A stretch of 64,000 bases of DNA from Corynebacterium glaucum (GTDB taxonomy: Bacteria; Actinomycetota; Actinomycetes; Mycobacteriales; Mycobacteriaceae). Where the stretch lies: the NCBI RefSeq assembly GCF_030408855.1, contig NZ_CP047358.1, positions 1,674,001-1,738,000 of the forward strand, read 5' to 3'. A program made the translations under genes and the position numbers. Positions 4,103 through 51,527 of the stretch are shown here, one piece after another. Each line of letters starts with the position of its first letter. Positions within the stretch are counted from its first letter, which is position 1. The notes under the pieces are model-generated. The model had not been told where the DNA came from and ran no database searches. It saw nothing but the letters and a program-made list of their open reading frames with translations.

Positions 4103-4645
4103 CTAGTTGACAGGCCAAATCGCAAACGAACCCCATACCGCATCCGGTGGCAGCGCCTCGAGCGCCCGCACCCCCTCGGCATCCGCGAGCGCCCGCAACG
4201 TCGCGCCGTTGTCGTAGACCACCACCGCCGCAATCGCCTCCGGGTCCAGCTGGATGCCGTTGGCTCTGCCTTGCGCCGCCAGCCGCTCAGCTTCGCGCTG
4301 GAACACATCTGCCCGGTTTTGGCCGGTTGTGGGTTCGGGAATGGGCTGAAATGGGGCGTCGATAAGCAAAAGTGCATTGACCCTCCGCACCTCCCGCACG
4401 ATGGCTGCGGCCTCCTCCGCGCGGCGCGGCGTATCAAAGGTGACCAGGGCAAAGGAGGAGCTTTCGCTTATCGACGGCTTCGTGCGCGACGCATACTCCT
4501 CCCAACTTTCCCCTTGGTTACGCCCGAGGGTGTCGCCCTGGAGGGTTGGTGCGTGCGGTTGGGTGCGCAAACCCACGACGTAGACTCCGGCGACGACGAG
4601 GATGATGCCAAGCGCCGCGGCGAGCGCCGTTGCGAGGCGGCGCAT
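4103..4645 (-). CDS. Membrane-anchored protein of unknown function
   Basis: 180 residues. One N-terminal membrane helix (about residues 5-27) is followed by an extracytoplasmic domain with a GESWEEYASRTKPS segment and an alternating hydrophobic pattern (FALVTFDTP, NALLLIDAPF, AAVVVYDNG). I recognise no family. It starts one base after the stop of the pseudouridine synthase gene, so it is probably co-transcribed and perhaps translationally coupled with it. Two copies of the GCTTATCGACG motif in opposite orientation lie inside it. It is likely a genuine gene because its codon pattern matches its neighbours and the frame has a classical signal anchor. Confidence 0.7.
   Translation of the reverse strand: MRRLATALAAALGIILVVAGVYVVGLRTQPHAPTLQGDTLGRNQGESWEEYASRTKPSISESSSFALVTFDTPRRAEEAAAIVREVRRVNALLLIDAPFQPIPEPTTGQNRADVFQREAERLAAQGRANGIQLDPEAIAAVVVYDNGATLRALADAEGVRALEALPPDAVWGSFAIWPVN
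4357..4476. repeat. Opposed pair of GCTTATCGACG motifs
   Basis: Minus-strand copy at 4357-4367 and plus-strand copy at 4466-4476. Further exact copies are at 7414-7424, 9840-9850, 15103-15113, 24309-24319, 31644-31654 and 47240-47250 (plus), and 48004-48014 and 51388-51398 (minus). Near copies with G for A (GCTTGTCGACG) are at 36102-36112 and 48025-48035 (plus) and 30149-30159 (minus). The motif is read in three reading frames, so the constraint appears to be on DNA. Confidence 0.75.
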
Positions 4646-4646
4646 C

Positions 4647-5576
4647 CTACGACTGCCTCATCGCGTCGAGCGCGTGCTGCAAATCAGCCGGGTACGGCGA
4701 CTCCACCTCCACGTAGTCGCCGGTGCGCGGGTGGGTGAAGCCGAGCTTGGTGGCGTGGAGCCACTGGCGGTTCAGGTTCAGCTCCTTGGCCAGGTTGGGG
4801 TCGGAGCCGTACATCGGATCGCCCACGCACGGGTGGCCAATGGCGGACATGTGCACGCGGATCTGGTGCGTGCGGCCGGTCTCCAGGTGCACCTCGAGCA
4901 GGCTCGCGCGGCGGAAGGCCTCGAGCACCTCGTAGTGGGTGACGGACTGGCGGCCGTCGTCAGTGACCGCGAACTTCCAGCCGGACGACGGGTGGCGCCC
5001 GATTGGCGCGTCGATGGTGCCCACGATCGGATCCGGCAAGCCCTGGACCATGGTGTGGTAGGTCTTGTCCACCGTGCGCTCTTTGAATGCGCGCTTGAGC
5101 ACGGAGTAACCGGGGACGGAAAGGGCGACGACCATGACGCCGGAGGTGCCGACGTCGAGGCGCTGCACGATGCCTTTACGCTCCGGTGGGCCCGCGTCCG
5201 GCAGCGTGAAGCCCATTGCTTGGAGGCCGCCGACGACGGTTGGACCTTCCCAGCCAAGGGTGGGGTGCGCGGCGACGCCGACGGGTTTGTCCACCGCGAT
5301 GACGTCGTCGTCCTGGTAGATGATGGTCAGGCCCTCGACGTGCTCGGCGACCGGCTCGGGCGCGCGCTTCGGCTCCGGCAGGGTCGCTTCGAGCATGGTG
5401 CCAGGGGTGACGCGGTCGGACTTCTGCACCGGCTGGGCATCGATGAGAACATCGCCCGCCGCAATCATGTCCGCGGCGGCGGCGCGGGAGACGCCGAAGA
5501 GCTTTGCAATCGCCGCGTCCACGCGCATCCCGTCAAGGCCCTCAGGCACGGGCAGGGAGCGAAATTCCCCGCTCAC
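4647..5576 (-). CDS. RluA/RluD-family pseudouridine synthase
   Basis: 309 residues, starting [13 protein letters not shown]. It has an N-terminal S4 RNA-binding domain (about residues 15-70, [15 protein letters not shown]) and then the catalytic domain. The active-site motif QRLDVGTSG carries the invariant Asp, and [13 protein letters not shown] and [12 protein letters not shown] are conserved family segments. The family converts uridines in 23S rRNA to pseudouridine. The GTG start at 5576 overlaps the lspA stop (GTGA), which is the coupling normally seen for lspA-rluD; a much longer upstream frame reaching 5924 runs through lspA in another frame and was discarded. The exact target uridines cannot be read, so no rlu letter is assigned. 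Confidence 0.93.
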
Positions 5577-6067
5577 TGCTTCTGCCCCAGTTCGGCAACG
5601 AAAATAGCGATCAGCAGCACGACCACGCCGACGCTGATGCTGGCATCCGCGATGTTGAACACAGCGAAGCTGCGCACTGAGATGTAGTCCACGACGTGCC
5701 CGAACCAGAACCCCGGCTCGCGGAAGAGGCGGTCGCAGAGGTTGCCTAGGGCGCCACCGGCGATGAGGCCGACGCCGAGCGCCTCGAAGCGGCTCGTGAT
5801 GCGCGGGGCGTAAATCAGCGCGCCGATCACGAACGCGAGCTGGATGGCAGTAAACAGCCAAGTGACGTTCGTGCCCATAGAAAACGCGGCGCCCGGGTTG
5901 AACAACAGGCGAAACTTCAGCCACTCGCCGAGCACGTAGACCGTCTCACCGGGCTCAAGCCATGAGAGCATGAATTGCTTCACTGCCTGGTCCACCGCCG
6001 CGATGGCCACCATCGCGACCGCCACCGGCGCGAGGTAGTTGCGGGTGGATACTGTCTGCGCTGTCAT
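5573..6067 (-). CDS. lspA: Lipoprotein signal peptidase II
   Basis: 164 residues, four hydrophobic helices. The two catalytic aspartates lie in [11 protein letters not shown] and [11 protein letters not shown], both intact, along with the [10 protein letters not shown] motif. The enzyme removes signal peptides from diacylglyceryl-prolipoproteins in the cytoplasmic membrane. Start ATG at 6067 ([12 protein letters not shown]) gives the family length; the frame stays open upstream but is not conserved. It overlaps the pseudouridine synthase gene by four bases. Substrates in this window include the exporter lipoprotein, the two neighbouring lipoproteins and CtaC, all with a lipobox. Confidence 0.96.
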
Positions 6068-6154
6068 CACCGACTCACTGTAGCCGGTTCGGCACAGTGC
6101 TTCGGAATAGTGCTTCTCTACTGGTGCGCTTGTGCCATGGGGTAGGTTCAAAGC

Positions 6155-7153: not shown

Positions 7154-8851
7154 ATGGTAGCGCCCTTACACATTGGCCTCGACGGCATCTCGTTTTCCTA
7201 CCCCGGCGGCAACCGTGTGCTCACCGACATCTCGTTCGCCGTGCCGTCGGGATCCGTCACCGGCTTAATCGGCGAGAACGGCGCGGGTAAATCAACGCTC
7301 CTCGGCATCATCTCCGGGGAGCTCACACCGGACGTCGGCACCTTGATCACGCCGCCGGTCACCGGGTTCATCGCCCAGGAAACCTCACTGCCGTTCACGG
7401 AGCCCGCGAGCACGCTTATCGACGCCGCTGTGAACGAGTTCCGACAAATCGAAACCGACATCGCAACGTACTCCGAGAAAATGGCAGAGGAGCCGGAGAA
7501 CCAAAAGCTGGCGGAAGCCTTTGACCGCGCGCTTGCCCGCGCCGAGAACTCCGGCGTGTGGGAGCTCGACGCCCGCATTGCCACCGTGCTCGCCGGCCTG
7601 GACTTAGCCAACGTGCCGCTGGAGACCCCGCTTGGGGAGATGTCGGGCGGCCAACGCCGCCGTTTCGCTCTGGCGACGCTTCTGCTGCGACCAGTCGATG
7701 CGATGGTACTGGATGAGCCAACGAACCACCTCGATGACGAAGCTGTGGACTTCCTCATCGGTGAGCTCGAGGCGTTCAAGGGACCGGTGCTCGCAGCCTC
7801 CCACGACCGTTACTTCCTCGACTCCGCGTGCGACGGCATCGTCGATCTTGACCCCGGCTTGGGCGCCGAAGGCGGCTACGGCGAGGCGACCCGCCAAGGT
7901 GCGCGCTTCACCGGCGCGTTCACCGACTACCTCAAGGCGCGCGAGGACCGACGCCGCCGCTGGGAAACCGACTACGCCGCCCAAGAACACGAGCGCGTCC
8001 GGCTGGAAAAGGCCGCGGAGCAGACCGCTGAGGACGTCTTCAACTCGCAGGAAAACAAGACGGAAACTCGCGCGGCGGCGAAGTTCTACGCCGACCGCGC
8101 GGCGAAGACCGTCGGCTCACGCCGCCGCGCCGCCGAACAAAGGCTGGACAGCCTGGAACGCAGCGCTATTCCGGTCCCGCCGCAACGTCTGCGGTTTACC
8201 GGGGTGCCGCCGCACACGGCGACGTCGATAGGCGTGCCTGCGGTGACAGCCGTGAACCTGCGGGTGCCCGACCGCCTAATGCCCCTTTCCCTGAAGGTGC
8301 AGCCCGGCCAGCACCTTCTGGTGGAAGGCCCGAACGGCTCCGGCAAGTCCACGCTGCTGAAAATCATCGACGGCACCATCACCGACTACGAGGGCGAGCT
8401 GCTCATCCCCGAAGAGCTCACCATCGCCCGCCTCGAGCAGGATGACGCCTGGCACGACCTTGAGGCCACCGCCGCGGAGATCTTCGAAAGCCACACCCCC
8501 GACGGCACGCCCGACCTGGTGGAAATGGGGCTCATGACCCCCGAACAAGCGGTGAAAAAGCTCGCAGATCTCTCGCTTGGCCAGCGCCGCCGCGTCTCGC
8601 TCGGCATCATCTTGGCTTCGCCGCCGGATCTTTTGCTTCTCGACGAGCCGACGAACCACCTCTCACTCGTCCTCGCGGAAGAGCTCGAGCATGCTTTGCT
8701 CGACTTTGCGGGCACCGTGATCATCACCAGTCACGACCGTTGGGTGCGCCGCCAGTGGCGCCGCCGCATCGAGCAAAATGATCCTCGCGCCAGGATTCTC
8801 ACCCTGTCCACCATGTGGACGGGCGAGCTCTGGCGCGAGGATCGCTTGTAA
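7154..8851 (+). CDS. ABC-F family ATPase
   Basis: 565 residues with two ABC domains and no membrane segments. Domain 1 has Walker A GENGAGKST, signature MSGGQRRR and Walker B MVLDEPTNHLDD. Domain 2 has GPNGSGKST, LSLGQRRR and LLLLDEPTNHLS. A charged linker rich in Arg/Lys/Glu joins them. The DEPTNHL motif and soluble tandem layout identify the ABC-F class, whose characterised members act on the ribosome (translation factors or antibiotic protection). Which subtype this is cannot be decided from sequence alone. It starts directly after the lipoprotein stop codon. Confidence 0.92.
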   Translation: MVAPLHIGLDGISFSYPGGNRVLTDISFAVPSGSVTGLIGENGAGKSTLLGIISGELTPDVGTLITPPVTGFIAQETSLPFTEPASTLIDAAVNEFRQIETDIATYSEKMAEEPENQKLAEAFDRALARAENSGVWELDARIATVLAGLDLANVPLETPLGEMSGGQRRRFALATLLLRPVDAMVLDEPTNHLDDEAVDFLIGELEAFKGPVLAASHDRYFLDSACDGIVDLDPGLGAEGGYGEATRQGARFTGAFTDYLKAREDRRRRWETDYAAQEHERVRLEKAAEQTAEDVFNSQENKTETRAAAKFYADRAAKTVGSRRRAAEQRLDSLERSAIPVPPQRLRFTGVPPHTATSIGVPAVTAVNLRVPDRLMPLSLKVQPGQHLLVEGPNGSGKSTLLKIIDGTITDYEGELLIPEELTIARLEQDDAWHDLEATAAEIFESHTPDGTPDLVEMGLMTPEQAVKKLADLSLGQRRRVSLGIILASPPDLLLLDEPTNHLSLVLAEELEHALLDFAGTVIITSHDRWVRRQWRRRIEQNDPRARILTLSTMWTGELWREDRL

Positions 8852-8885
8852 TGCCGGCGTAAGACCGGTGTAAGACCGAGCGTTC

Positions 8886-9533
8886 CTACAGCCCCGGCGC
8901 CTGCTGGTAGCCCTGCTCAGGTGCAGGGGCTGCCGGCGCTGCAGGTGCTTCCGGCGCCGCAGGTGCTGGCGCGCCGCCCTGACCCGGATCAACCGGGGCC
9001 GGCGCGACCGGCGGATTCGCGCTGCACATTGCCGGCACCTGCTCCGGCGGCAGGGTCGAGGAAATCAGGTTGCAGGCCCACATCTGGGACAGCTTCCAGT
9101 GTCCGCCCTCGTAGACAAAGGTGACATCGTTAATCAGCGTCGGCTCCTGGCCCGGCGCGGTGAGGTTCACCGCAGCGAGCACCTGGTTCGGCTCGAAGTC
9201 CGGCAGCACCGGCTCCACGACCTGGAAGTTCGCGCCGGATTCAACCTGGGACTGCGTCATGACGTCGAAAAGCTCAGGCACGTTTTCACCGCCTTGGACG
9301 GTGAGCATGCGCTCTTGAATCGGCAGGTTCGGATCTGCCGCGCGCTGAATTACGGAGTTAAGCTCCGCCACCGTCGGCATCTCCGCCACCGGAGCGGCTT
9401 GGGTCTGCTGTTCACTCGACGGCGCAGCGGCAGTCGTGGACTCCTTCCCCGCATCCTGCTCATCAGAGCAGGCGGCCAACCCCACGCTCAGGCCAATCGC
9501 GGCGACAGCAGCAGCAATTTTTTGTGTGTGCAC
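8886..9533 (-). CDS. MTB12-like secreted lipoprotein
   Basis: 215 residues, GTG start with GGGAG five bases upstream. The signal peptide ends in lipobox GLAAC. The core domain (about residues 45-175, from MPTVAELNSVIQRAADP to SQMWACNLIS) resembles the mycobacterial low-molecular-weight antigen MTB12 family, which has an NTF2-like fold. A low-complexity Pro/Ala tail follows (APAAPEAPAAPAAP and similar). Two cysteines (WACNL, AMCS) could form a disulphide. It is convergent with the ABC-F gene and divergent from the asparaginase gene. The role of the family is not established, and the assignment rests on recognising the domain pattern. Confidence 0.8.
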   Translation of the reverse strand: MHTQKIAAAVAAIGLSVGLAACSDEQDAGKESTTAAAPSSEQQTQAAPVAEMPTVAELNSVIQRAADPNLPIQERMLTVQGGENVPELFDVMTQSQVESGANFQVVEPVLPDFEPNQVLAAVNLTAPGQEPTLINDVTFVYEGGHWKLSQMWACNLISSTLPPEQVPAMCSANPPVAPAPVDPGQGGAPAPAAPEAPAAPAAPAPEQGYQQAPGL

Positions 9534-9627
9534 GTGTTCTCCCTTTCACATGTGTAACACCACGAGCGTACCCATAGCCCGGCGTCCAACCCCAAACGAC
9601 ACCGCCACTTCTGGCACGCTGGTGCAC

Positions 9628-10539
9628 ATGGGCAACTTCATTCTCGTCATTTCCACCGGGGGCACTATCGCGTGCACCACGGACGCTACCGGCACCCGCC
9701 GACCTACGCTCACTGCCGCTGAGCTGGTCGAGCAGTCCGGCACCGCCGAAAGTGTCGGGGTCTATGACGCAGCCAGCCTCGACTCCTCAGCCATCACTCT
9801 TGCCGACATCGACACGCTCGCAGAGCTCATCGAACAATCGCTTATCGACGACTCCATCACCGGCGTCGTCCTCACCCACGGCACCGACTCGATGGCAGAG
9901 ACCGCGCTGGCGCTCGATCTCATCCACAACGATCCTCGACCCGTTGTCCTTACCGGGGCGCAGCACCCCGCCGACCACCCGCACGCCGACGGACCGGAGA
10001 ATCTGCGCCGCGCCATCGACGTGGCCGCCGACCCGCTGCGGCGCGGCAACGGCGTGCTTGTGCATTTCGACGGTGACACCCTGCCCGCCCGCGGCTTGTA
10101 TAAGGCCTCCACCGCGGACCTCGGCGCATTCGCGCTGACCACCGAGCGTCCTCAGCCGCGCCCCGCGCCGGTGGCGCGCGCCATGCTCAGCGGCAAGAAC
10201 GTACCTATCCTGCGCGCCTGGCCCGGCGCGGACGGCACGCTGGTCGAGCTCGCCGCTGACGCGAACCCTGACGGCATCGTCGTCGAAGCGCTCGGTTCCG
10301 GCAACGTCTCCCCCGCCATGGGGGAAGCGCTTGGTCGCGCTATCGAGCGTGGCATCCCCGTCGTCGTTTCCACCTCAGTTCCGCGTGGCGGAGTCGAGTT
10401 CGCCTACGGCGGGGGCGGCGGTGGCGCCACTCTCGGCGAACTCGGCGCCCTCCCCGCCGGCTCCCTCTCCCCCGGCCAGGCCCGCATCGCGCTCATCACC
10501 GCGTTGGCCACAGGAACAGACCCGCGGTCACTGCTCTAG
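9628..10539 (+). CDS. L-asparaginase (type I/II fold, cytoplasmic)
   Basis: 303 residues. The two catalytic Thr motifs are present: STGGTIAC near the N-terminus and THGTDSM at about residue 90, with the LTGAQ segment. The enzyme hydrolyses asparagine to aspartate and ammonia. No signal peptide is seen with the ATG at 9628, so a cytoplasmic enzyme is likely; the frame stays open upstream, but that part overlaps the divergent lipoprotein gene. Its 3' end overlaps the dinB 3' end by 12 bases in convergent orientation. Confidence 0.92.
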   Translation: MGNFILVISTGGTIACTTDATGTRRPTLTAAELVEQSGTAESVGVYDAASLDSSAITLADIDTLAELIEQSLIDDSITGVVLTHGTDSMAETALALDLIHNDPRPVVLTGAQHPADHPHADGPENLRRAIDVAADPLRRGNGVLVHFDGDTLPARGLYKASTADLGAFALTTERPQPRPAPVARAMLSGKNVPILRAWPGADGTLVELAADANPDGIVVEALGSGNVSPAMGEALGRAIERGIPVVVSTSVPRGGVEFAYGGGGGGATLGELGALPAGSLSPGQARIALITALATGTDPRSLL

Positions 10540-11910
10540 CCAATCACCCCAGTCCAAGCTGTCGAGGGGGTCTGCTGGGTGGAGCAGTGGGTCGTCGGCA
10601 CGCATGCTTTTGATGCGACCTGGACCAGTGGCTCGGGTTTCAAACCGCACGGTGACCCATCCTTTGCCCGCGCCTTGGACCCAGCCGTGGCCGTGCTCTT
10701 CGTGGTAGACGTCCTGCGTGGCCTGCCACTGCCCCGCCTTCGGCGCAGCATCAGCGATGACCTCCACCTGCGGACCACCTGCGCGGTCCGATACCCCGGA
10801 CTCGTAATCCGTTTGCACCGGTTTCACGATTGTTTGGTCGAGCTCGGGAAACAGGACGTCTTGCAGCGAATCCTCCAGCCCCGAATAGCTCACACCCACC
10901 AGCCGGATCGGGCCGACTTCATCCGGGTAGCGCATGATACGAAACGCGGTGGCCAAGAGCGTCTCCTCATCATCGGTGGCGTACGGCAGGGTCGCCGAAC
11001 GTGACTCGGTGTGGAAGTCCGACATCTTCAGCTTCACTGTCACTGTGCGCGCGCCGCGGCCATCCTTGCGCAAGCGTCGATGCGACTCTGCGGCCGCTCG
11101 CTTGAGTGCTGCGTCGACCTCGGGCGCGGTCGTGAGATCCTTTGGATAGGTGTGCTCGGAGGAAATCTGCTTCGACTCGGCGCGGGGCGCGACTGCACGT
11201 TCATCCTGACCGCGCGCGAGGTGCCACAGCTGCTTGCCGACGACACCGCCGAGCGCGATCTCGACCTCCTTTTCCGTCAGCGCTGCGAGATCACCGATCG
11301 TCTCAATGCCTGCCGCTTTCAGCTTCGCGCCGGTCACCGGCCCCACTCCCCACAGCTCGTTAACCGGCAGCGGGTGCAGGATCTCCAACTGCTCCTCGTG
11401 CGGGATAACGAACACACCGTCTGGTTTCGCCAAACCGGAGCCGATCTTCGCGTACTGCTTGCCGCTGCCCGCGCCGATCGAGCTCGGCAAGCCGGTTTCG
11501 CGTTTGATTTCCGCGCGGAGCTCGTTGGCCCATTCGGTAACCGCGTCGGGTGAGGCGTCGAAAAGCACCGATGGCTCCATGAAGGCCTCATCGATGGAGA
11601 GCTGCTCGAACACATCTACGTGGCGCGCGATGATCTCGAATACCCTGCGGGAGGCTGCAGAGTAGACGGGGCGCCGGGGTGCGACGAGTACTGCTTGCGG
11701 TCCGACGAGCCGCGCCGCCCGGTGAGTGGGCATCGCGGAGCGGGCGCCAAACTTGCGGGCCTCATAGCTCGCGCCTGCGACTACCCCGCGGCCCGAGACC
11801 CCCGCCACGAGCACCGGGCGGCCTTTGAGCGTTGGGCGGGTGAGCTGCTCCACGGATGCGTAAAACGCGTCCATATCGATGTGCAGCACCCAACGTGACA
11901 TGTCCCTCAC
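10528..11910 (-). CDS. dinB: DNA polymerase IV (Y-family, translesion)
   Basis: 460 residues. The palm motifs LHIDMDAFYASVEQ and LSIDEAFME carry the metal-binding acidic residues, and YSAASRRVFEI and the helix-hairpin-helix segment LKAAGIETIGDLAAL follow. The ~100-residue C-terminal extension beyond the little-finger domain (DRAGGPQVEVIADAAPK onward) is typical of actinobacterial members. The enzyme performs error-prone synthesis across damaged template. The GTG at 11910 is used; an in-frame ATG three codons later (11901, MSRWVLHIDMD) is the alternative. No LexA-type box was recognised upstream. Confidence 0.94.
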   Translation of the reverse strand: MRDMSRWVLHIDMDAFYASVEQLTRPTLKGRPVLVAGVSGRGVVAGASYEARKFGARSAMPTHRAARLVGPQAVLVAPRRPVYSAASRRVFEIIARHVDVFEQLSIDEAFMEPSVLFDASPDAVTEWANELRAEIKRETGLPSSIGAGSGKQYAKIGSGLAKPDGVFVIPHEEQLEILHPLPVNELWGVGPVTGAKLKAAGIETIGDLAALTEKEVEIALGGVVGKQLWHLARGQDERAVAPRAESKQISSEHTYPKDLTTAPEVDAALKRAAAESHRRLRKDGRGARTVTVKLKMSDFHTESRSATLPYATDDEETLLATAFRIMRYPDEVGPIRLVGVSYSGLEDSLQDVLFPELDQTIVKPVQTDYESGVSDRAGGPQVEVIADAAPKAGQWQATQDVYHEEHGHGWVQGAGKGWVTVRFETRATGPGRIKSMRADDPLLHPADPLDSLDWGDWLEQ

Positions 11911-14701: not shown

Positions 14702-15400
14702 ATGGATCCCATTCTCGCGCTCGCAGACATCCACTTCGGCCGCAAACAAACCGGCGACAAGAAGGTCGGGCCGGGCCTCGCGTGGGCACTCGAGGCGCTC
14801 GACCAGGGTGCCAAAGCGGGCGCGCGCCACCTGATCATGGCGGGCGACATCATCGATCGGAAGCGCTTCACCGAAGCGACATACGGCGAGGTGAACCAGT
14901 TCTTCGAGCGCGCACTTTCACTCTTCGACACCGTCCTGTTCACCTCCGGCAACCACGACGTCCACCACAACCTCGACCTCCCCGCCGGCGTCACTGTCGC
15001 CTCAACCTCCCCAGCCAGCTACCAAATGGGCAGTTGCGCGGTCCACACCGCAGGGGTTGAGGTAGACAAGGACCCGCGCGAGCTTGTCGGTAGCTTTCCT
15101 TCGCTTATCGACGGCACCGTCAACCTCGGCATCCTCCACACCAGCCTCACCGGCGAGCATTCCAACAACCCGTGCTTGCCGTGCACTCGGGAAGAGCTGC
15201 TTGACCACGGCTGCGACGCGTGGTTGCTTGGACACGTGCACCAGCCCGTTTCGGTCAACGAGTCGCCCTTCATCGGCTGGATTGGCATGGGGCGTGCGCT
15301 GATAGTGCGCAACGCTGAATCAGGGGTGCCAGATTCGAATGCGCCTGAATCGAAGGCGGCGGTCGAAGAGCTGACCTCCATACGGTGGCAGCATGACTGA
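14702..15400 (+). CDS. Metallophosphoesterase (SbcD/Mre11-like fold)
   Basis: 232 residues. The calcineurin-like metal motifs occur in order: ADIHFGRK (D-x-H), AGDIIDRK (GD..DR), SGNHDVHH (GNHD), ILHTSLTGEH and LLGHVHQP (GHxH). The binuclear metal site looks complete. The family includes nucleases such as SbcD and phosphodiesterases, and at this length it lacks the capping domain of SbcD. ATG at 14702 is preferred to GTG at 14693. The next gene starts inside its last codons (8-base overlap). Two perfect palindromes lie just upstream, so the pair is probably regulated as a unit. Confidence 0.85.
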   Translation: MDPILALADIHFGRKQTGDKKVGPGLAWALEALDQGAKAGARHLIMAGDIIDRKRFTEATYGEVNQFFERALSLFDTVLFTSGNHDVHHNLDLPAGVTVASTSPASYQMGSCAVHTAGVEVDKDPRELVGSFPSLIDGTVNLGILHTSLTGEHSNNPCLPCTREELLDHGCDAWLLGHVHQPVSVNESPFIGWIGMGRALIVRNAESGVPDSNAPESKAAVEELTSIRWQHD

Positions 15401-21223: not shown

Positions 21224-21925
21224 TCAGACTACGGGGCGCGGGCCGAACACCGCAGTACCGACACGCACGATGTCGGATCCGCATGCAATTGCCGTCTCGA
21301 AATCACCGCTCATACCAGCCGACAGCACGAGGTTTCGGCCGACTCGTTCGGAGTATTCGTCGGTAAGCGAGCGAAGCTCTTCGAACACCGCGCGGGGCTC
21401 AGCGTCCAGCGGTGGGACCACCATGAAACCTTTGAGACGGAGGTGCGCTGCGCCCTCGGTGGCGGCAACGAGTTCGTCGAGACCCTCGCGGGTGATGCCG
21501 CCGCGAGAGGTATCACCGTCGGCGGAGACTTGAATGAGGCACGGCAGGGTGTCGCTCGTGCGGTCGCCGCGCTCCAGCGCGAGCGACATGCCGCGGTCGA
21601 GGCCGTTCGCGAGCTTGACGGAGTCCAAAGAGTGCACCTCGGAAGCCCAGCGTGCGACCGAGTTCGCCTTCTTGGACTGGATCTGGCCGATCATGGCGAT
21701 CCCGCAGGCGTCGTCAAGCTTTGCTGCTTTCTCCCTTGCCTCCTGCTCGCGGTTTTCTCCCACCATGGTGATGTCGCGCGCCGCGACCTCGCGAATGGCT
21801 TCGACCGGGTGGAACTTGCTGACTGGCAGGAGGGTGACGCTGCCAGATTCGCGGCCGGCTGCGCGCTCGGCCTCGCGGATCTGGGACTGAACATGCTCAA
21901 GGTTGTCGGCGATCATGCTGCTCAT
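21224..21925 (-). CDS. YggS-family PLP homeostasis protein
   Basis: 233 residues. Segments SVTLLPVSKFHPVEAIREV (PLP-binding Lys in VSKF) and MIGQIQSKKANSVA fit the alanine-racemase-like barrel of YggS/PROSC. LVLSAGMSGDFETAIACGSD and VRVGTAVFG near the C-terminus are the phosphate-binding and closing motifs. The protein binds pyridoxal phosphate without known enzyme activity and balances the vitamin B6 pool. The ATG overlaps the end of pgeF by four bases. Confidence 0.93.
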   Translation of the reverse strand: MSSMIADNLEHVQSQIREAERAAGRESGSVTLLPVSKFHPVEAIREVAARDITMVGENREQEAREKAAKLDDACGIAMIGQIQSKKANSVARWASEVHSLDSVKLANGLDRGMSLALERGDRTSDTLPCLIQVSADGDTSRGGITREGLDELVAATEGAAHLRLKGFMVVPPLDAEPRAVFEELRSLTDEYSERVGRNLVLSAGMSGDFETAIACGSDIVRVGTAVFGPRPVV

Positions 21926-41192: not shown

Positions 41193-42284
41193 GTGGATTA
41201 CCGCAGTGTCGACCTCGTTGAGGTTCCGGCAGCTGTCAACGCCCAGCTTGCTGAGTACTTCTCCTACCGCGCACCCGAGGTGGCCGCGCTGGGTTCACCT
41301 TTCCAGAAGTCGGTCTCGTACCTCGAGCAATTCGTGCTCGGAGGAGGCAAGCGAATCCGTCCGCTGTATGGGTGGGCAGGGTTCGTCGGCGGCGGCGGAC
41401 TCGAGAAAGGCGAAGAGGATCCGCAGTCCGTGTTGCGCGCAGTCAGCGCTCTAGAGTTCATCCAAGCCTGCGCACTCATTCACGATGACATCATCGATGC
41501 CTCTGATACCCGCCGTGGACAACCAACGGTGCATCGAGCTATTGAGGCAGAGCACCAGGAGCGCGATTTCTTGGGCAGTTCGCCGGCGTTCGGCGAGCAC
41601 GCTGCAATTCTCATCGGTGATCTTGCCCTGGTCTGGGCGGAGGACATGTGGCGGTCGTCTGGTGTGTCGAACGCCGCGCTTGATCGCGCAGCAGAGCCAT
41701 GGCAGGGCATGCGCACTGAAGTCATTGGAGGCCAGCTCCTCGACATCATGCTGGAAGCTGAGGGAAGCGAGTCGGCCGAAGCGGCGAATACGGTCAACCG
41801 CTACAAGACCGCGGCCTACACCATCGAGCGTCCGTTGCACCTGGGCGCGGCCTTGGCCGGAGCAACAGACGCCATCATCGAGGCGTTTCGAGGCTACGGT
41901 CGCGATATCGGGATGGCGTTCCAGCTTCGCGACGACATGCTCGGGGTCTTCGGCGACTCAGCGATCACCGGTAAGCCCGCCGGCGACGACCTGCGCGAAG
42001 GCAAACGGACCGTGCTTTACGCCACCGCACTTAAGCTCCTAGATGAGTCCAGCCCCGGTCAGGCAGCTAAGCTGCGCGCCGGCATCGGTACTGTCGAAGA
42101 TCCCGACGCTGTACACGAAATTGCATCCATTATCGCGGGCAGCGGCGCTGTGGAAGCGGTCGAAGAGGAGATCGATCGACTGAGCACCTCCGGTCTCGCT
42201 CACCTCGACAGCGTCACCCTCAGCGACGAAGTCGGAGAAATTCTGCGCACACTCGCGATCAAATCAACCGCTCGACGCAGTTAA
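41193..42284 (+). CDS. idsA: Polyprenyl (geranylgeranyl-type) diphosphate synthase
   Basis: 363 residues, GTG start with GGAG five bases upstream. The two aspartate-rich motifs are DDIIDASDTRRG (first, DDxxD) and RDDMLGVFGD (second, DDxxG), and GGGKRIRP is the IPP-binding region. The enzyme condenses IPP with allylic diphosphates, feeding menaquinone and polyprenyl phosphate carriers. The product chain length cannot be judged, but the residues before DDxxD (FIQACALIH) resemble GGPP-type enzymes. It ends exactly one base before the convergent Rv2175c-like gene. Confidence 0.92.
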   Translation: MDYRSVDLVEVPAAVNAQLAEYFSYRAPEVAALGSPFQKSVSYLEQFVLGGGKRIRPLYGWAGFVGGGGLEKGEEDPQSVLRAVSALEFIQACALIHDDIIDASDTRRGQPTVHRAIEAEHQERDFLGSSPAFGEHAAILIGDLALVWAEDMWRSSGVSNAALDRAAEPWQGMRTEVIGGQLLDIMLEAEGSESAEAANTVNRYKTAAYTIERPLHLGAALAGATDAIIEAFRGYGRDIGMAFQLRDDMLGVFGDSAITGKPAGDDLREGKRTVLYATALKLLDESSPGQAAKLRAGIGTVEDPDAVHEIASIIAGSGAVEAVEEEIDRLSTSGLAHLDSVTLSDEVGEILRTLAIKSTARRS

Positions 42285-42647
42285 CTAAAATGCCATCGCT
42301 TGCGCGCGGCGGATCACTTCGCGCGCACCGTGACCATGCAGCGCGTCAATCGGCCTACCCGGTAAGGATTCGTCCTCCGTGAACAAGAACTGGAGGATCT
42401 CTGCAGGCTCGTAGCCGCCGTCGGAAAGCACTGTAATCGCTCCACCGACAAACTTGGACAGCTCACCGTCGTCAAGCAATGCCGCCGGAATCGTGTTCAC
42501 GCCATCCTTGCGGTAGACCACCAGCTTGCCAGCGCCCACCATGTCGTGCACCTTCGTCACCGGCACGCCGAGGATCTCAGCTACGTCTGGAAATGGAAGA
42601 AGCTCCTCGTTGACAAGGAGCGCATCAAGATTCTGCTGGGAAGTCAC
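42285..42647 (-). CDS. Rv2175c-like DNA-binding protein
   Basis: 120 residues from GTG at 42647 (TTG at 42656 is an alternative). A winged-helix core (LPFPDVAEILGVPVTKVHDM, then AGKLVVYRKDGVNTIP) and the C-terminal GYEPAEILQFLFTEDESLPG, with PIDAL, match the Rv2175c family. In M. tuberculosis this protein is a substrate of kinase PknL, whose gene is divergent 59 bases away here, keeping the pair. It probably binds DNA, controlled by phosphorylation. Confidence 0.9.
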   Translation of the reverse strand: MTSQQNLDALLVNEELLPFPDVAEILGVPVTKVHDMVGAGKLVVYRKDGVNTIPAALLDDGELSKFVGGAITVLSDGGYEPAEILQFLFTEDESLPGRPIDALHGHGAREVIRRAQAMAF

Positions 42648-42706: not shown

Positions 42707-43966
42707 ATGCAATTGGCAGTGGGCGACTCCCTAGACAACCGCTACGTGATCGATCGGCCGATCGCGCGCGGCGGCATGGCGACGGTGTACCGCTGCGTGG
42801 ACACCCGACTTGGGCGCGAAGTTGCTGCCAAGGTCATGCACGAACAATTCGTTCACGACCCAGTGTTTCGCGACCGCTTTCGCCGTGAAGCTCGGGCAAT
42901 GGCACAGCTCTCCCACCCCAACTTGGTCAATGTCTACGATTTCTCGGCGCAGGGTAATGCCATTTTCCTCATTATGGAGCTAATCACTGGAGGCACACTG
43001 CGCGAGCTTCTCGACGAGCGGGGGCCAATGCCTCCACACGCTGCAGCTTCAGTCATGCGGGGCATGCTCACCGGCCTCGCAGCTGCCCACGCCCGTGGGC
43101 TAATCCACCGCGACATCAAGCCGGATAATGTGCTGATTAACGCAGATCACCGGGTAAAACTCGCCGATTTCGGTCTTGTGCGGGCGGCAGCTGAAGCCAC
43201 GCATTCGACCGATCAGATCGTGGGCACGGTGAGCTACCTGTCACCGGAGCAAGTTGACGGCTCCCCCATGACGCACGCTTCTGACGTTTACTCGGCGGGG
43301 ATCGTACTCTTCGAATTGCTCACCGGACGCACCCCTTTCGCTGGAGACACACCCATTGCTCACGCGTACGCCCGGTTGCGCGGGGATGTCCCTCCCCCGT
43401 CAGCGTTTATTGCGGGCGTGCCAAAGCTTTTCGACGAGCTGGTTGCCACCGCGACCGCCCGGGCACCCGAAGACCGCTTCCGAGATGCGACGGAATTCCT
43501 CCACGCACTCGACGATGTCGCTGAAGCATTGCGCCTACCCGCGTACACCGTGCCGGTGCCTACAAATTCCGCGGCGACCCGAGCCGCCGCGCACCCCACC
43601 AACGTCGACATGCGACCTTCGCCGGCACCGGAAGAAGGTCCGCAGCGTGCTCCCGCCGCGGCGAATGTAGCAGAGACCCGGGTGGCCACACCCCGCGCCA
43701 GCGAGGAACGCCTCTTCCCCGAAGGCCAAGCGCAGATGCCGGCGCAAGCGCCGCCTGCTTATCACGCTCCCGCCCAGCAAATGCCGCCCGCCCAGCCCCC
43801 GGCACAACCGCAAAAGCCCCGCATCAACCCAGTGACGAACCGGGGTGGTGTGGGGTTAGCAGTGTTTGTTGTACTCGCCTTCGCCGTGATCGCTGCGGTG
43901 GCGATCGGCGGCTGGTGGTTCGGCTCTGGCAACTACGGCCAGGTGCCACCGCTTATCGCTGTGTAG
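42707..43966 (+). CDS. pknL: Serine/threonine protein kinase PknL, truncated before PASTA domains
   Basis: 419 residues (ATG at 42707; GTG at 42689 possible). The kinase domain is complete: GGMATVYR, VAAKVM (Lys), HRDIKPDN catalytic loop, ADFGLV, GTVSYLSPEQ. After a Pro/Ala/Gln-rich linker there is one membrane helix (about residues 377-400). Only about 14 residues follow (GSGNYGQVPPLIAV), the last ones resembling the opening of a PASTA repeat, then TAG. Corynebacterial PknL normally carries several extracellular PASTA domains, so this copy appears to have lost its peptidoglycan sensor. Confidence 0.88.
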   Translation: MQLAVGDSLDNRYVIDRPIARGGMATVYRCVDTRLGREVAAKVMHEQFVHDPVFRDRFRREARAMAQLSHPNLVNVYDFSAQGNAIFLIMELITGGTLRELLDERGPMPPHAAASVMRGMLTGLAAAHARGLIHRDIKPDNVLINADHRVKLADFGLVRAAAEATHSTDQIVGTVSYLSPEQVDGSPMTHASDVYSAGIVLFELLTGRTPFAGDTPIAHAYARLRGDVPPPSAFIAGVPKLFDELVATATARAPEDRFRDATEFLHALDDVAEALRLPAYTVPVPTNSAATRAAAHPTNVDMRPSPAPEEGPQRAPAAANVAETRVATPRASEERLFPEGQAQMPAQAPPAYHAPAQQMPPAQPPAQPQKPRINPVTNRGGVGLAVFVVLAFAVIAAVAIGGWWFGSGNYGQVPPLIAV

Positions 43967-43990: not shown

Positions 43991-45397
<1,407 letters not shown>

Positions 45398-45409
45398 TCA
45401 GAAGGGCGT

Positions 45410-45943: not shown

Positions 45944-45945
45944 GG

Positions 45946-46914: not shown

Positions 46915-46928
46915 ATTTTGTACTCCCT

Positions 46929-47873
46929 TTAGGCATCGGCGCGGGCCAGATCAGCTACGCCGATCATACCTGCCTGCGGACCGAGCTCCGCCGCAAGCAC
47001 CTGCGGCACCGGCCGGTAGCCGGCACCGACCATGTTGGCTGCCATTTCCGCACGCGCCTCGTCGATGAACAGGTCTGCATCTGCGCTGACTCCCCCACCC
47101 ACAACGATGCAGGCGGGATCAAGCACATCAGCAACAATGGACAATCCACGCCCGAGCCAGGTTCTGAAGCTTTCCAGCGCCGCAATCCCCAGTGCGTCAC
47201 CGCCGCGCGCCGCTGCCATCACATCGTGGCCATTCGCTCGCTTATCGACGACCTTGCGGTACAAAGCGCAATCCTCGTAATTGCCCTGCGTCGCCTTCTC
47301 CAGCGCACAATCCACCAGCGACGTGCCGGAGGCGTAGCGTTCGAGACAGCCCTTCTTTCCGCACGAGCACACACGCCCACCTGGTACCACCGTGATGTGA
47401 CCGAATTCGGGCGCGGTACCGAAAGAGCCACGGTAGATCTCACCGCGATCCACCAACGTAGCGCCAATGCCCGTGCCAACGGCGAAGAACACCCACGTCT
47501 CCGCGTCCTGCGCTGCCCCGAAGCGGTATTCGCCCCAGGCGGCGGCGTTCGCGTCGTGCTCTAGCCGCACCGGAAGCCCGATCGCAGCCTCCAGCTCGCG
47601 GCGTACCGGCCGATCAGCGCGCCACGGAAGGTGCGGCGCAAATCGCACGATTTCGCACTCTGGGTCGAGAAACCCCGCAATCGCCATACCCACGGCCGAG
47701 ATGTCGAATTCATTCCGCAGATCCGCGACCAAGTCGACAATGGTCTGCTCAAGTTCAGCATCCACGTGCGGGGTCTCGGTGGAGCGCACTGCCAGCACGT
47801 TGCCGTGGGCATCTACCACGCCCGCGCGAGTGTTCGTCCCGCCGATATCGAAGCCGATGGTATGAGAAGCCAT
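46929..47873 (-). CDS. ROK-family glucokinase
   Basis: 314 residues. The phosphate loop is FDIGGTNTRAGVVD, the catalytic segment LEHDANAAAWGEYRFG, and EFGHITV followed by CSCGKKGCLERYASG is the ROK zinc-binding motif (all three Cys and the His present). It phosphorylates glucose or a related hexose in the cytoplasm, using ATP or polyphosphate (not decidable). It abuts the pimB' gene (two-base gap). Confidence 0.92.
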   Translation of the reverse strand: MASHTIGFDIGGTNTRAGVVDAHGNVLAVRSTETPHVDAELEQTIVDLVADLRNEFDISAVGMAIAGFLDPECEIVRFAPHLPWRADRPVRRELEAAIGLPVRLEHDANAAAWGEYRFGAAQDAETWVFFAVGTGIGATLVDRGEIYRGSFGTAPEFGHITVVPGGRVCSCGKKGCLERYASGTSLVDCALEKATQGNYEDCALYRKVVDKRANGHDVMAAARGGDALGIAALESFRTWLGRGLSIVADVLDPACIVVGGGVSADADLFIDEARAEMAANMVGAGYRPVPQVLAAELGPQAGMIGVADLARADA

Positions 47874-47875
47874 AA

Positions 47876-49030
47876 CTAGCTATCGTAGACCGCCGGCGTT
47901 TCGCCTCGGAGCACTTCCACCAGCCTGTCCCCTAGCACCTTCCATGAGTACGCCTGCGAGACGTGGCACCTGCCGGCTTGGCCCATGCGGGCGGCCAAGG
48001 GGGCGTCGATAAGCAATAAGCTCAGCTTGTCGACGAGCTCTTGGATGCTGTGACCGTCGACGACGAAACCTGTGTCTTTTGTGACCGTTTCAGGTGCGCC
48101 GCCGGAGTCGCCGGCGATGACCGGGATGGCGCAAGCTTGTGCTTCGAGGTAGACGATGCCCAGGCCTTCGATGTCGAGACCTGCTTTGCGAGTGCGGGCG
48201 GGCATGGCGAACACATCCGCGGCTGCGACGATGTCGCGCAGTCGTTCGCGCGAGACGGCACCGGTGAACGTGACACCCTCGACGTCGCGCGCGAGTCGCT
48301 TCAGCTTGTGACGGAACGGGCCGTCGCCGACGATGATGAGCTGGGTGCCCGGGACGCGCTCGCGGACAGCTGGGATAGCGCGGATGAGCTGATCCTGGCC
48401 CTTGCGGGCGACCAGGCGCGAGCTGCAGACAACTAGTGGGGACTCGCCAACGCCGAGAGATTCTCGGGTGGCGCCGCGCTCGACTGGTTCCGCGGGGCGG
48501 AAGAATTCCGTATCCACGCCCGACGGCAGGGGGACGAAGTCGGGGTCTCGTCCAAAGGCGTCCTTGAGACGTTCGAGCGTGAAGTTGGAAATGTAAGTGA
48601 TGGTGTCGGCGTGCTCGCCGATGCGCTGCAATGAGCGGCGTGCACCCGGCACGAGCGACCAGCCGACCTCGTGGCCGTGCGTGGAGGCGACAACCCGCGA
48701 TGCGCCTGCGCGCTTCGCGGCTGCCCCCATCACTGCGAACGGGGCGGCAGCACCGAACCAAACTGTGTCGATGTTGTGCGCGCGAATCAACTCTTGCATC
48801 TTTCGCGTCACCCGGACAGTCGGCAGCAAAAAGTAATGGGGCCAGCGCACGACCGTGTATTCGCGGGCTGCATCCCAGGCAGCAGCCTCCTCTTTGTTCG
48901 GAGTCGGTGCGAAAACGAAGACGGACTCCGGCCCCTCACGCCGCACGATCTCGTCGACAAAATCGCGGACGTAGGACTGAATCCCCCCGATGGCCGGAGG
49001 GAAATCATTGGTAACAATAAGCACGCGCAT
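47876..49030 (-). CDS. pimB: GT4 mannosyltransferase PimB'
   Basis: 384 residues from ATG at 49030 (MRVLIVTNDFPPAIGGIQS). GT-B fold with donor-site motifs SRLVARKGQDQLIRAIP, GDGPFRHKLKRLAR and EGLGIVYLEAQACAIPVIAG (EX7E motif). This is the second mannosyltransferase of phosphatidylinositol mannoside synthesis (Rv2188c type), acting on PIM1 at the inner membrane face. A longer frame upstream is in the divergent intergenic and is discarded. Confidence is higher for the family than for the exact substrate. Confidence 0.88.
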   Translation of the reverse strand: MRVLIVTNDFPPAIGGIQSYVRDFVDEIVRREGPESVFVFAPTPNKEEAAAWDAAREYTVVRWPHYFLLPTVRVTRKMQELIRAHNIDTVWFGAAAPFAVMGAAAKRAGASRVVASTHGHEVGWSLVPGARRSLQRIGEHADTITYISNFTLERLKDAFGRDPDFVPLPSGVDTEFFRPAEPVERGATRESLGVGESPLVVCSSRLVARKGQDQLIRAIPAVRERVPGTQLIIVGDGPFRHKLKRLARDVEGVTFTGAVSRERLRDIVAAADVFAMPARTRKAGLDIEGLGIVYLEAQACAIPVIAGDSGGAPETVTKDTGFVVDGHSIQELVDKLSLLLIDAPLAARMGQAGRCHVSQAYSWKVLGDRLVEVLRGETPAVYDS

Positions 49031-49043
49031 AGCGCGACAGAGT

Positions 49044-50072: not shown

Positions 50073-50199
50073 TTGTAATTCCTCCTGATGTTTCCAAAAC
50101 CGCTATCACTATAACCCCCGGAGTTCGGCGGTCAAAGGACTATTGGTCTAGGCGGGAAATGTTGTGACTCGAGTGAACCTAAGATGCCGCTGAACACGC

Positions 50200-50232
50200 A
50201 AAACCCCCGCACCAGGGTGGCTGGGCGGGGGT
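50200..50232 (-). terminator. Terminator after the second NlpC/P60 gene
   Basis: ACCCCCGC (50203-50210) and GCGGGGGT (50225-50232) form an 8-bp GC-rich stem, and the minus strand continues with TTTT. It lies 15 bases after the stop of the upstream gene. Confidence 0.85.
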
Positions 50233-50246
50233 AGACTGCGCTAATT

Positions 50247-51008
50247 TTAGAAGCGCACCACGGAGTGGATCGGCATGTAGTTCAGTGGCCGTTCGCCAAC
50301 CGGAATGCCGGAGTTCAGCGCGTCGATCATCATGCCGTCGCCGGCGTAGATTGCAACGTGGGATGCACCGCCGTAGTACACGACGATGTCACCTGGCTGG
50401 ATCTGATCGAGCGGGATGTTCTGGCCTGCAGACGCCTGCGCCTGGGAGGTGCGCGGAATGGAGATGCCCGCCTGGGAGTACACCCAAGAAGTGAAACCGG
50501 AGCAGTCGAACGCGTTCGGGCCAGCAGCGCCGTAGACGTACGGTGCACCCACCTTGCTGCGCGCGATGTCCACGATCTGCTGACCCTTGGAAGTCTCGAC
50601 GACCGGGGCTTCCTCAACGATCTCTTCAACCGGCTCGGCGGGAGCTACGTACTGCTCAGCAGCAGCCACCTGTTCGGTGTAGCGAACCTCAAGGTTGTCG
50701 AGGTACGCGCTGAAGCCCTGCAGGTTCTTAACGCCTGGAACAGCCTTCGCTGCCTTAACAGCTGCCAGAACATCAGCGTCAGCGTCGACACCCTCCAGCG
50801 ACGGAATCCACTGCTCAATGCCCGGGATAGCTGCGATTCCGGGGACGTTCTCGATGCCAGGAACCTCAACGGCAACCGGGGTGTTCGGAACGCGTACCTC
50901 GGCCGCCTCGGCGGTCGGGACCATCAACGTCGCGCCTGCAACAGCTGCAGTTGCAGCTGCAACGGTGCGTGCCACGGTGCTGGTCTCCTGGCGACGGTGC
51001 TTAGCCAC
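50247..51008 (-). CDS. NlpC/P60 peptidoglycan hydrolase under a ydaO riboswitch
   Basis: 253 residues from GTG at 51008 (MAKHRRQETSTVARTV). A signal peptide (to about residue 36, ending EAAEV), a Val/Pro/Gly/Ile-rich middle with repeated PGI units (VPGIENVPGIAAIPGIEQW), and a C-terminal NlpC/P60 domain with Cys in NAFDCSGFTSWVY, His in GGASHVAIYAGD. Unlike the other NlpC/P60 copy there is no long coiled coil. The third catalytic position reads MIDALNSG instead of VVHASDY, so the usual second His is missing in this copy. A ydaO-type riboswitch precedes it. Confidence 0.92.
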   Translation of the reverse strand: MAKHRRQETSTVARTVAAATAAVAGATLMVPTAEAAEVRVPNTPVAVEVPGIENVPGIAAIPGIEQWIPSLEGVDADADVLAAVKAAKAVPGVKNLQGFSAYLDNLEVRYTEQVAAAEQYVAPAEPVEEIVEEAPVVETSKGQQIVDIARSKVGAPYVYGAAGPNAFDCSGFTSWVYSQAGISIPRTSQAQASAGQNIPLDQIQPGDIVVYYGGASHVAIYAGDGMMIDALNSGIPVGERPLNYMPIHSVVRF

Positions 51009-51030
51009 GAAAAGTGTTCTCCATATCCTT

Positions 51031-51185
51031 CTCAATCGCCTACCGGGTTAGCTGACGGGTGGGGCTTGAGAATCAGCCCTGGCGCGCTCCGCGACAAGTA
51101 AAGCTGTCGTCCCTCACGGCCATTTACCCCAGGGGCGAAACTCCTTGGCTTCACTTGGGCCCCCGGCTCCCGTTCCTGCGTACTC
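51031..51185 (-). promoter_or_regulatory. ydaO/yuaA-type (c-di-AMP) riboswitch
   Basis: On the minus strand the leader of the NlpC/P60 gene contains GGGAGCCGGGGGCCCA, then CCCTGGGGTAAATGG and CGTCAGCTAACCCGGTAGGCG in order, which are the conserved blocks of the ydaO-yuaA aptamer as seen in Streptomyces and mycobacteria. This class binds c-di-AMP and in actinobacteria commonly precedes cell-wall hydrolase genes. The gene starts only 22 bases after the aptamer, so control is probably at translation or by a short overlapping terminator. Confidence 0.9.
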
Positions 51186-51527
51186 ATTGGGGGCACGCGG
51201 TGTCCGAGAAGCGGCGTATATGTTGTGTCTTCGTACCTTGCGTCAACGGTCGTTATCGCAATGTCTCGAACAGATTACGAAACGGCAAAGACGATGTCCA
51301 CCCACTCGGCCGTTATCGATCCGTTATTTTTTCAAACTCCCCCAATCTGGGGTTACCTTAGCGCTGCCAATTCTTTGGCGCACGAACCGTCGATAAGCGA
51401 AGAACCGGCTTGTGAACTGGGCTTTCTTTCCAAGCCCTTCGGACCTGACCACGAGCGGGCCTGCACTCCTCCCGGAGCCACTGTGACCTTGCTCTCACAG
51501 AGGATTTAACCCGCTCGTAACAAAGGG
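51186..51527. other. Non-coding region upstream of the riboswitch
   Basis: Between qcrB and the riboswitch. I see no gene on either strand: short frames lack ribosome binding sites. It probably holds the promoter for the NlpC/P60 transcript. The stretch includes one copy of GCTTATCGACG (minus strand, 51388-51398) outside any coding sequence. Confidence 0.4.
51388..51398 (-). repeat. Intergenic copy of the GCTTATCGACG motif
   Basis: The only exact copy in this window not inside a coding sequence; flanked by CTTC on its 5' side (reads CTTCGCTTATCGACGG on the minus strand), matching the extended form seen at 4466 and 15103. Confidence 0.7.

Follow-up and report, generated by a model that had tools for sequence, protein, structure and literature searches.

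A short word repeated along the Corynebacterium glaucum chromosome is a candidate DNA uptake sequence with clade-specific dialects

The 64,000-nucleotide stretch of the C. glaucum chromosome analysed here (the window) carries ten exact copies of one 11-mer, GCTTATCGACG, which raises the question of why this particular word should recur so often and what may read it. An initial annotation of the window had listed an uptake signal, a chi-like recombination site and a polar segregation motif among several options.

Copies and abundance of the word

All ten sites given for GCTTATCGACG were found to be correct in position and strand (plus strand 4466..4476, 7414..7424, 9840..9850, 15103..15113, 24309..24319, 31644..31654 and 47240..47250; minus strand 4357..4367, 48004..48014 and 51388..51398, the last described as intergenic in that annotation). 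The chance expectation had been placed far below one, and 100 dinucleotide-preserving shuffles of the window agreed with this, giving a mean of 0.05 copies and at most 1. In case of the variant GCTTGTCGACG, the three reported sites (minus strand 30149..30159; plus strand 36102..36112 and 48025..48035) are present, but the list was incomplete and a fourth, missed copy lies at 61325..61335 on the plus strand. The copies at 48004 (minus) and 48025 (plus) form a close inverted pair.

The underlying motif was found to be GCTTNNCGACG, a gapped 9-of-11 motif with two free bases and 41 copies in the window. Besides the two words above, these are GCTTGCCGACG (plus 11232..11242; minus 1626..1636, 24888..24898, 28087..28097, 31788..31798 and 45160..45170), GCTTCTCGACG (plus 8635..8645, 22131..22141 and 43006..43016), GCTTTTCGACG (plus 43426..43436; minus 9263..9273, 11556..11566, 59100..59110 and 60195..60205), GCTTACCGACG (minus 21358..21368; plus 60069..60079), GCTTGACGACG (minus 21709..21719 and 42467..42477) and GCTTTACGACG (plus 29120..29130 and 60881..60891; minus 61600..61610), together with single copies of GCTTAGCGACG (minus 16413..16423), GCTTCACGACG (minus 18318..18328), GCTTGGCGACG (minus 23428..23438), GCTTTGCGACG (plus 27623..27633), GCTTCGCGACG (plus 41924..41934) and GCTTTCCGACG (minus 42419..42429). 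The TC or TTC said to precede the word is a mild preference only: of 179 copies, 80% have a pyrimidine (T or C) at position -1 and 54% have T at position -2.

Genome-wide, the C. glaucum chromosome carries the short word about 1,600 times (1,606 matches to GCTTNNCGAYG, whereas the reversed control has 131), and the motif density is 0.61 per kb. The form GCTTNTCGACG alone has 446 forward and 462 reverse copies (908), against 9 and 15 (24) for its reversed control. A count close to the order-4 Markov expectation had been named as evidence against the word; GCTTATCGACG was counted 102 times across 464 kb, where 1.1 copies were expected.

Frames, strands and spacing

The called genes contain 262 copies, whereas shuffling of synonymous codons with proteins and codon usage fixed leaves 20.5 (maximum 29 in 40 shuffles). 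The motif is therefore a DNA-level signal, and the earlier statement that it is not a protein constraint was right. All six strand and frame classes lie above the synonymous-shuffle expectation. The claimed absence of a preference for the coding strand proved wrong, since 189 sense and 75 antisense copies were counted in 464 kb (47 and 28 for the exact 11-mer), the sense copies lying mostly in the frame xxG CTT NNC GAC Gxx.

Against the proposal of a polar segregation motif stands the similar number of copies on the two strands in each chromosome half, the origin being assumed near base 1 from GC skew: in the sampled stretches, 61 of 124 copies below 1.03 Mb and 89 of 197 above 1.13 Mb lie on the plus strand. 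KOPS and other polar motifs were rejected as the ori-to-ter orientation is absent, and replication polarity was rejected on the same strand balance. Even spacing was also rejected, the gaps being approximately Poisson (CV 1.13 overall, 464 kb). HIP1 of cyanobacteria is likewise a short word iterated genome-wide, but it is palindromic, whereas GCTTNNCGACG differs from its own reverse complement, as had been recognised for the word at the outset; a HIP1-type repeat was rejected on this ground.

Neighbouring copies 50-800 bp apart were found to favour opposite orientation, whereas those of the gonococcal control do not. The alternation is only weak in the second dialect described below (29 to 15, p = 0.049), and the exact 11-mer taken alone has no overall alternation, 47 of its 91 neighbours being opposite. 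Opposite pairs closer than 50 bp number 7 among 517 copies in 844 kb, against 41 among 204 copies in 200 kb of gonococcus, and a terminator role of the motif was rejected for the small number of such pairs.

Dialects, conservation and competence genes

Enrichment in related genomes, on which the initial annotation had let its reading depend, was found in most of them. At least 100 copies of GCTTNTCGACG occur in 169 of 242 Corynebacterium genomes, and a second dialect (dialect II), GCTTNNCGATG, reaches 490-1,337 copies in 14, each with 6-117 copies of GCTTNTCGACG; the remaining 60 are below both thresholds. When the letters were left free and the gap shape was fixed beforehand, GCTTnnCGACG, GCTTnnCGATG or GATTnnCGACG ranked within the top five words for 17 out of 27 genomes. 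In a TadA tree of 20 genomes, which is unrooted, built from one gene and weak in its deep support, all seven dialect-II genomes belong to a set of eight that one split separates from the rest (support 95/97). Most of the genus Corynebacterium carries clade-specific dialects of the motif. Among 196 genomes sampled from 90 other genera, none showed a comparable enrichment (up to about 2.6 times the control, against 12 times in C. glaucum), and in 14 genomes of the same family outside the genus the pattern reaches up to about 1.8 times the control. Window orthologues sought in dialect-II genomes with an 847-base DNA query gave only weak matches in seven of eight genomes.

Conservation at orthologous positions, the other point on which that reading was to turn, was found in six species. 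The motif is kept at 20/38, 14/32, 11/26, 9/26, 11/31 and 7/23 aligned sites, about three to four times the background of 10-15% for GC-matched other sites. For individual copies, counted as species carrying the motif over species aligned there out of the six compared, the values are 6/6 at 43426, 5/5 at 8635, 2/2 at 4357 and at 4466, 5/6 at 47240, 4/5 at 7414, 3/4 at 9840 and at 48004, 2/3 at 24309, 4/6 at 41924, 3/6 at 11232, 2/6 at 11556 and at 31644, and 0/6 at 9263, 21709 and 42467; the copies at 15103 and 51388 are aligned in 0/6 species. Part of this conservation could stem from L-x-D, the peptide read in the commonest frame; for the T of CTT, it amounts to only 56% of the aligned cases, a level similar to that of same-phase flanking sites.

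Three Corynebacterium phages contain 2 copies within 137 kb, where the chromosome has 0.61 per kb, a scarcity that may depend on the dialect of their hosts; 21 Corynebacterium records match one terminase, and three viral contigs were left out of the count. Corynebacterium plasmids were absent among the matches listed. The three longest motif-free gaps in the 464 kb contain transposase-type rve genes, glycosyltransferases and an ArdC-like gene, and look imported. Since the density of the motif rises with GC (r = 0.69), base composition may account for its scarcity in low-GC islands.

Genes of the kinds that serve transformation in Micrococcus luteus are present in nearly the whole genus. Among the 242 genomes, matches at E <= 0.001 were found for comEC in 241, for comEA in all 242, and for the T2SSE ATPase and the prepilin peptidase in 239 each. 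The C. glaucum genome has a single T2SSE match and one located tad cluster, which was identified gene by gene. These genes do not track the motif: motif-less genomes have them too, and three of these (G029, G043 and G131) carry tadA with three small pilin-like ORFs. The phylogenetic profile of comEC, the Tad-type ATPase, comEA and prepilin peptidase is nearly universal and separates nothing. Seven genomes are without a T2SSE match over the cut-off, including the motif-rich drafts G094 (732 copies), G189 (640) and G198 (1,188), and no prepilin-peptidase match was obtained in dialect-II G128 or G192 (262 copies); assembly gaps may be the cause of such missing matches in motif-rich genomes. A receptor change between dialects was also looked for in the small Tad pilins, where the differences are confounded with phylogeny, and no claim is made.

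A candidate uptake sequence among its rivals

The motif is over-represented, is a DNA-level signal, is conserved, has dialects, is without comparable enrichment in the sampled other genera and may be rare in phages, being nearly absent from three; as such features are typical of a DNA uptake sequence (DUS), GCTTNNCGACG is probably the DUS of Corynebacterium. The uptake signal, which had been one option among several, is thus the one favoured by the evidence, whereas polar segregation and chi are not.

It is unlikely that the copies are sites for a chromosome-organising or nucleoid-occlusion protein acting chromosome-wide, with dialects formed by drift of its specificity. The spread at about 0.6 per kb, the orthologous-site conservation, the rarity in phages and the motif-free island-like gaps would fit such sites, and looping by a dimer could explain the preference for inverted neighbours at 50-800 bp. 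However, about 1,600 sites would be a large number for a protein of this kind (there are only tens of sites for Noc, SlmA and parS), the motif is non-palindromic and has no ori-ter polarity, and many species whose chromosomes still have to be organised have few copies of it or another form in its place. A chi-like hotspot, as had been proposed, here taken to be read by AdnAB or RecBCD, fits poorly and is quite improbable: one genus contains two dialects and near-absence, replichore bias is missing, 14 other genomes of the family stay within about 1.8 times the control, and known chi sites are 5-8 bp against a 9-of-11 motif, even though the motif is abundant, asymmetric and DNA-level and its favoured inverted neighbours would stop the enzyme from either side of a break. 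The chance is slimmer still that the motif is a self-marker for defence, where a nuclease or modification enzyme (e.g., an unusual methylation system) would spare or modify motif-bearing DNA; recognition sequences seldom have nine bases and genomes normally avoid restriction sites instead of accumulating them, against which stand the rarity in three phages and the inverted neighbours, which would suit type III enzymes with their inverted site pairs. A codon or peptide artefact, with preferred codons for L-x-D yielding the word, is refuted by the synonymous-codon shuffling and has practically no chance: its frame is indeed the commonest (169 of 262 genic copies), but 8.6 copies are predicted there and 20.5 overall, antisense and remaining frames are likewise enriched, CTT is a minority leucine codon (12%), and sister species have the same signal with a different base at position 10.

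Returning to the uptake sequence, we infer uptake, a receptor and competence in Corynebacterium. The cells would be naturally transformable under some condition, and a surface receptor would bind the motif in free DNA and hand the DNA to ComEA/ComEC. This putative receptor is most plausibly a Tad minor pilin (a TadE-like or Rv3654c-like small protein after tadC). Biased uptake followed by homologous recombination would enrich the motif along the chromosome, and exchange would be restricted to DNA of the same dialect. Because neighbours 50-800 bp apart prefer opposite orientation, the motif may, as a weaker suggestion, also make uptake directional; on one fragment, an inverted second copy would then be useful, and one oriented like the first would be redundant. 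Further, it can be speculated, as a possibility short of probable, that the whole genus is naturally transformable and that its Tad-type pilus reads a gapped, dialect-bearing uptake sequence together with its orientation, the first outside Proteobacteria. In this tentative scheme, dialect-I neighbours within 0.05-0.8 kb might have been laid down oppositely oriented.

If the reading is true, it would be the first such uptake-tag case known to us in Gram-positive bacteria and a third, independent one, in a genus of actinomycetes that includes human-associated and industrial members. Selective DNA uptake would also have arisen with Tad-type pili, and hidden natural competence would be predicted in Corynebacterium. 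It would provide a handle for genetics in harmless species and explain gene-exchange barriers between dialect groups, and the opposite orientation of close neighbours is a testable clue to how the tag is read. No title or abstract describing the motif or a Corynebacterium uptake sequence was found, with subscription papers and preprints outside the scope; the two listed papers in which the 11-mer GCTTATCGACG occurs deal with a leader from a plant and a clone of a duck virus. In its available part, PMC5217627 mentions Corynebacterium for CRISPR repeats.

To our knowledge, self-specific uptake tags are known only from Neisseriaceae and Pasteurellaceae, and the motif resembles the tags for self-DNA uptake in Neisseria and Haemophilus. 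Like the Neisseriaceae DUS, as described in the accessible sections of PMC3630211, it is an asymmetric motif of about 10 bp with more than a thousand copies on both strands, its dialects follow phylogeny, and some related genomes are without an abundant repeat; all dialects share a core, which is CTG in Neisseriaceae (PMC3630211) and G-TT--CGA-G in the three Corynebacterium forms. Unlike that DUS, the Corynebacterium motif belongs to another phylum, is gapped with two free bases, has few terminator hairpins, has neighbours inverted at 50-800 bp instead of below 50 bp, and accompanies Tad-type and not type IVa pilus genes. The Pasteurellaceae USS is also a short abundant motif, with variants, common to the species of a family, whereas its sequence is different and its pairs are often terminators; the name Corynebacterium does not appear in that paper (PMC1852404). 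In M. luteus, transformation requires Tad genes, with two tad clusters that are both needed, unlike the one located in C. glaucum, and the main text of that paper has 0 occurrences of 'uptake sequence' or 'sequence-specific' (PMC4322843). The Flp/Tad-dependent system of M. luteus, in the sections available, has the same kinds of genes as C. glaucum, with comEA, comEC, tad genes, flp and TadE/TadF-like pilins (PMC4322843).

Form, coding context and conservation of the motif

All ten exact copies of GCTTATCGACG reported for the window were found in place, against 0.05 in shuffles, and a sample of 464 kb (the window plus 20 spaced 20-kb stretches) held 102 copies against 1.1 expected from a Markov model of order 4. 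In the complete chromosome of 2,529,320 bases, of which the window forms bases 1,674,001-1,738,000, the looser form GCTTNTCGACG occurs 446 + 462 times on the two strands, against 9 + 15 occurrences of the reversed pattern that served as control. The TC or TTC described in front of the 11-mer was found as a preference for T or C, but a mild one, and C is favoured at +12 (464 kb for both). When position 6 was left open, giving GCTTNNCGACG, the base there was T in 187, A in 66, C in 32 and G in 20 copies (484 kb); the motif is therefore taken as nine fixed and two free bases. This gapped motif has 41 copies in the window, and GCTTNNCGAYG is present 795 + 811 times in the genome (control 57 + 74). 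An inverted pair with arms ten bases apart lies at window positions 48004-48035.

The coding context was studied in 464 contiguous kb, where a simple hexamer caller gave 420 genes and a coding fraction of 0.855. Intergenic DNA holds 25 of 289 motif copies (42 expected from length) and 17 of 92 exact 11-mers (13 expected). The absence of CDS-strand preference claimed in the initial annotation is contradicted by 189 sense against 75 antisense genic copies, 168 of the genic copies being in a single sense frame (L-x-D). Its view that the motif is not a protein constraint has stood, as 262 genic copies were observed against 20.5 after shuffling of synonymous codons among genes (40 shuffles, highest count 29), with enrichment in all strand and frame classes. 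In the same test, neither the dialect II word (see below), with 7 copies against 11.8 expected, nor the reversed word, with 11 against 8.8, was enriched in the C. glaucum genome.

The window was aligned with its orthologous region in six related species, which covered 57-85% of it at 73.7-77.3% identity. All nine fixed bases were kept in 20/38, 14/32, 11/26, 9/26, 11/31 and 7/23 aligned copies, species by species, which is 2.9-3.8 times the 10-15% found for other GC-matched 9-of-11 words, so that the motif is conserved at orthologous positions. Identity was 82% at the fixed bases and 72% at the two free positions and flanks. The T of CTT was conserved in 56% only, hence copies are often lost at that T.

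Distribution and dialects

Enrichment extends well beyond C. glaucum: copy numbers of GCTTNTCGACG in 242 Corynebacterium genomes lie between 2 and 1,533, with at least 100 in 169 of the genomes, and the reversed control does not exceed 36 in any of the 242. A second dialect, GCTTNNCGATG, differing at position 10 and first detected by a k-mer search of 20 genomes (40 kb each), reaches 490-1,337 copies in 14 genomes, in each of which GCTTNTCGACG is present 6-117 times; eleven further genomes have 150-223 copies of the second dialect. With thresholds of 100 copies for GCTTNTCGACG and 400 for GCTTNNCGATG, 60 genomes fall below both, some of them still exceeding the control (G202 with 96 copies, G086 with 82). 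In a class-wide sample of 196 genomes from 90 other genera the motif did not exceed about 2.6 times the control, against 12 times in the C. glaucum genome.

A free-letter word search with a preset 4-nn-5 gap (27 genomes, 20-60 kb each) placed one of three motif forms among the top five words in 17 genomes. The third form, GATTnnCGACG, is present in G054, and a weak ACTTnnCGACG was seen in G202. G027 was not recovered despite its 736 dialect II copies, and no convincing word emerged from the 20-60 kb searched in each of G007, G011, G018, G029, G043, G087, G131 and G142. An unrooted tree of TadA from 20 genomes has all seven of its dialect II members, and the motif-less G043, together beyond one split (support 95/97); dialect I occurs in more than one part of the tree, whose deep forks are poorly supported.

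Other repeats were also met in 40-kb samples. G029 (L035-L036) has a different repeat holding GGAGTATACCA / CCCTGGTATAC 12 times, with the appearance of a repeat element that is either dispersed or clustered. G005 (L045-L046) carries TCCGGGAG / TCCGGGAGT 16 / 11 times alongside the motif form GCTTNACGACG. In the motif-less G018 (L031-L032), GACGAGCACAA occurs six times and CGATGCTCACC five times (expected below 0.1); these may be repeats or another motif.

Candidate uptake machinery and motif-free DNA

Matches at E ≤ 0.001 were found for comEC in 241, comEA in 242, the T2SSE ATPase in 239 and prepilin peptidase in 239 of the 242 genomes (241, 231, 235 and 230 above curated cut-offs), and some of the genomes that fall short are drafts rich in the motif. 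In Micrococcus luteus, such genes are described as needed for transformation (PMC4322843). As the set is nearly universal, it argues only for feasibility and provides no tie between the motif and the machinery. The Tad locus of C. glaucum, at about 178.6-183.0 kb (L074 4589-8950), encodes an Ssd/CpaE-type protein, a TadA-family ATPase, two T2SSF-type proteins (one slightly below cut-off), a DUF4244 small protein as putative pilin, a TadE-type minor pilin (match below cut-off) and an Rv3654c-family TadE-like protein; comEA-comEC lies at 1,933.9-1,936.2 kb (L065), and its ComEC shows 99% identity with the protein of C. glaucum DSM 30827, which places the host in or very close to that species. 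tadA was present in 20/20 Tad loci examined, including those of motif-less species. Among the matches listed, comEC of G123 and comEA of G007 have one in-frame TGA each; both genomes are motif-poor, and decay of competence genes in these species is possible.

Three Corynebacterium phages, whose hosts may not use this dialect, hold 2 copies in 137 kb against about 84 expected at the chromosomal 0.61 per kb. The longest motif-free gaps in 464 kb measure 15.6, 14.6 and 10.8 kb (about 2,002,131-2,017,744, 1,834,991-1,849,592 and 2,047,680-2,058,483), where 0.57 gaps above 10 kb are expected. Five of their genes gave Pfam matches, two to an integrase/transposase core, two to glycosyltransferase family 2 and one to an ArdC N-terminal domain, and with these rve transposase-type, glycosyltransferase and ArdC-like genes the gaps look like imported DNA. 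Their GC is 0.548 in two and 0.677 in the remaining one; since motif density tracks GC (r = 0.69), age and composition are confounded in motif-poor DNA.

Orientation of neighbours and comparison with known uptake sequences

In 844 kb of the C. glaucum genome, neighbouring copies separated by 50-800 bp formed 123 pairs of opposite and 51 of same orientation (p = 5e-8); the counts were 91 and 29 in ten other dialect I genomes, which are not independent because six include the orthologous region, and 29 and 15 in seven dialect II genomes. Beyond 800 bp the ratios were 179 to 135 and 117 to 99 in C. glaucum and the ten genomes, respectively. The opposite share of 0.69 exceeds that of all 284 gapped words of similar density (mean 0.47, maximum 0.62; 464 kb), and head-to-head (33) and tail-to-tail (34) pairs are equal. 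The exact 11-mer alone, which is rarer than the gapped motif, showed no overall alternation (47 of 91 neighbours opposite). Directional uptake may be the reason for this arrangement.

The rival explanations each fit fewer features than a DNA uptake sequence (DUS), and the motif probably works like one; it is set as a putative DUS variant rather than a proven member. The gonococcal DUS was counted likewise in 200 kb of NZ_CP119142.1 (L138-L141; 1.02 per kb), a 2.17-Mb Neisseria gonorrhoeae record filed as a plasmid which looks like the chromosome. There, copies less than 50 bp apart were opposite in 41 cases and same in 1, and those at 50-800 bp had no preference (35 to 32), whereas it is at 50-800 bp that the Corynebacterium motif prefers opposite neighbours; its arrangement is therefore unlike that of the known DUS. 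Scarcity in foreign DNA may be a further trait of this kind; of the other tested features, all but the terminator habit of close inverted pairs agree with those of a DUS.
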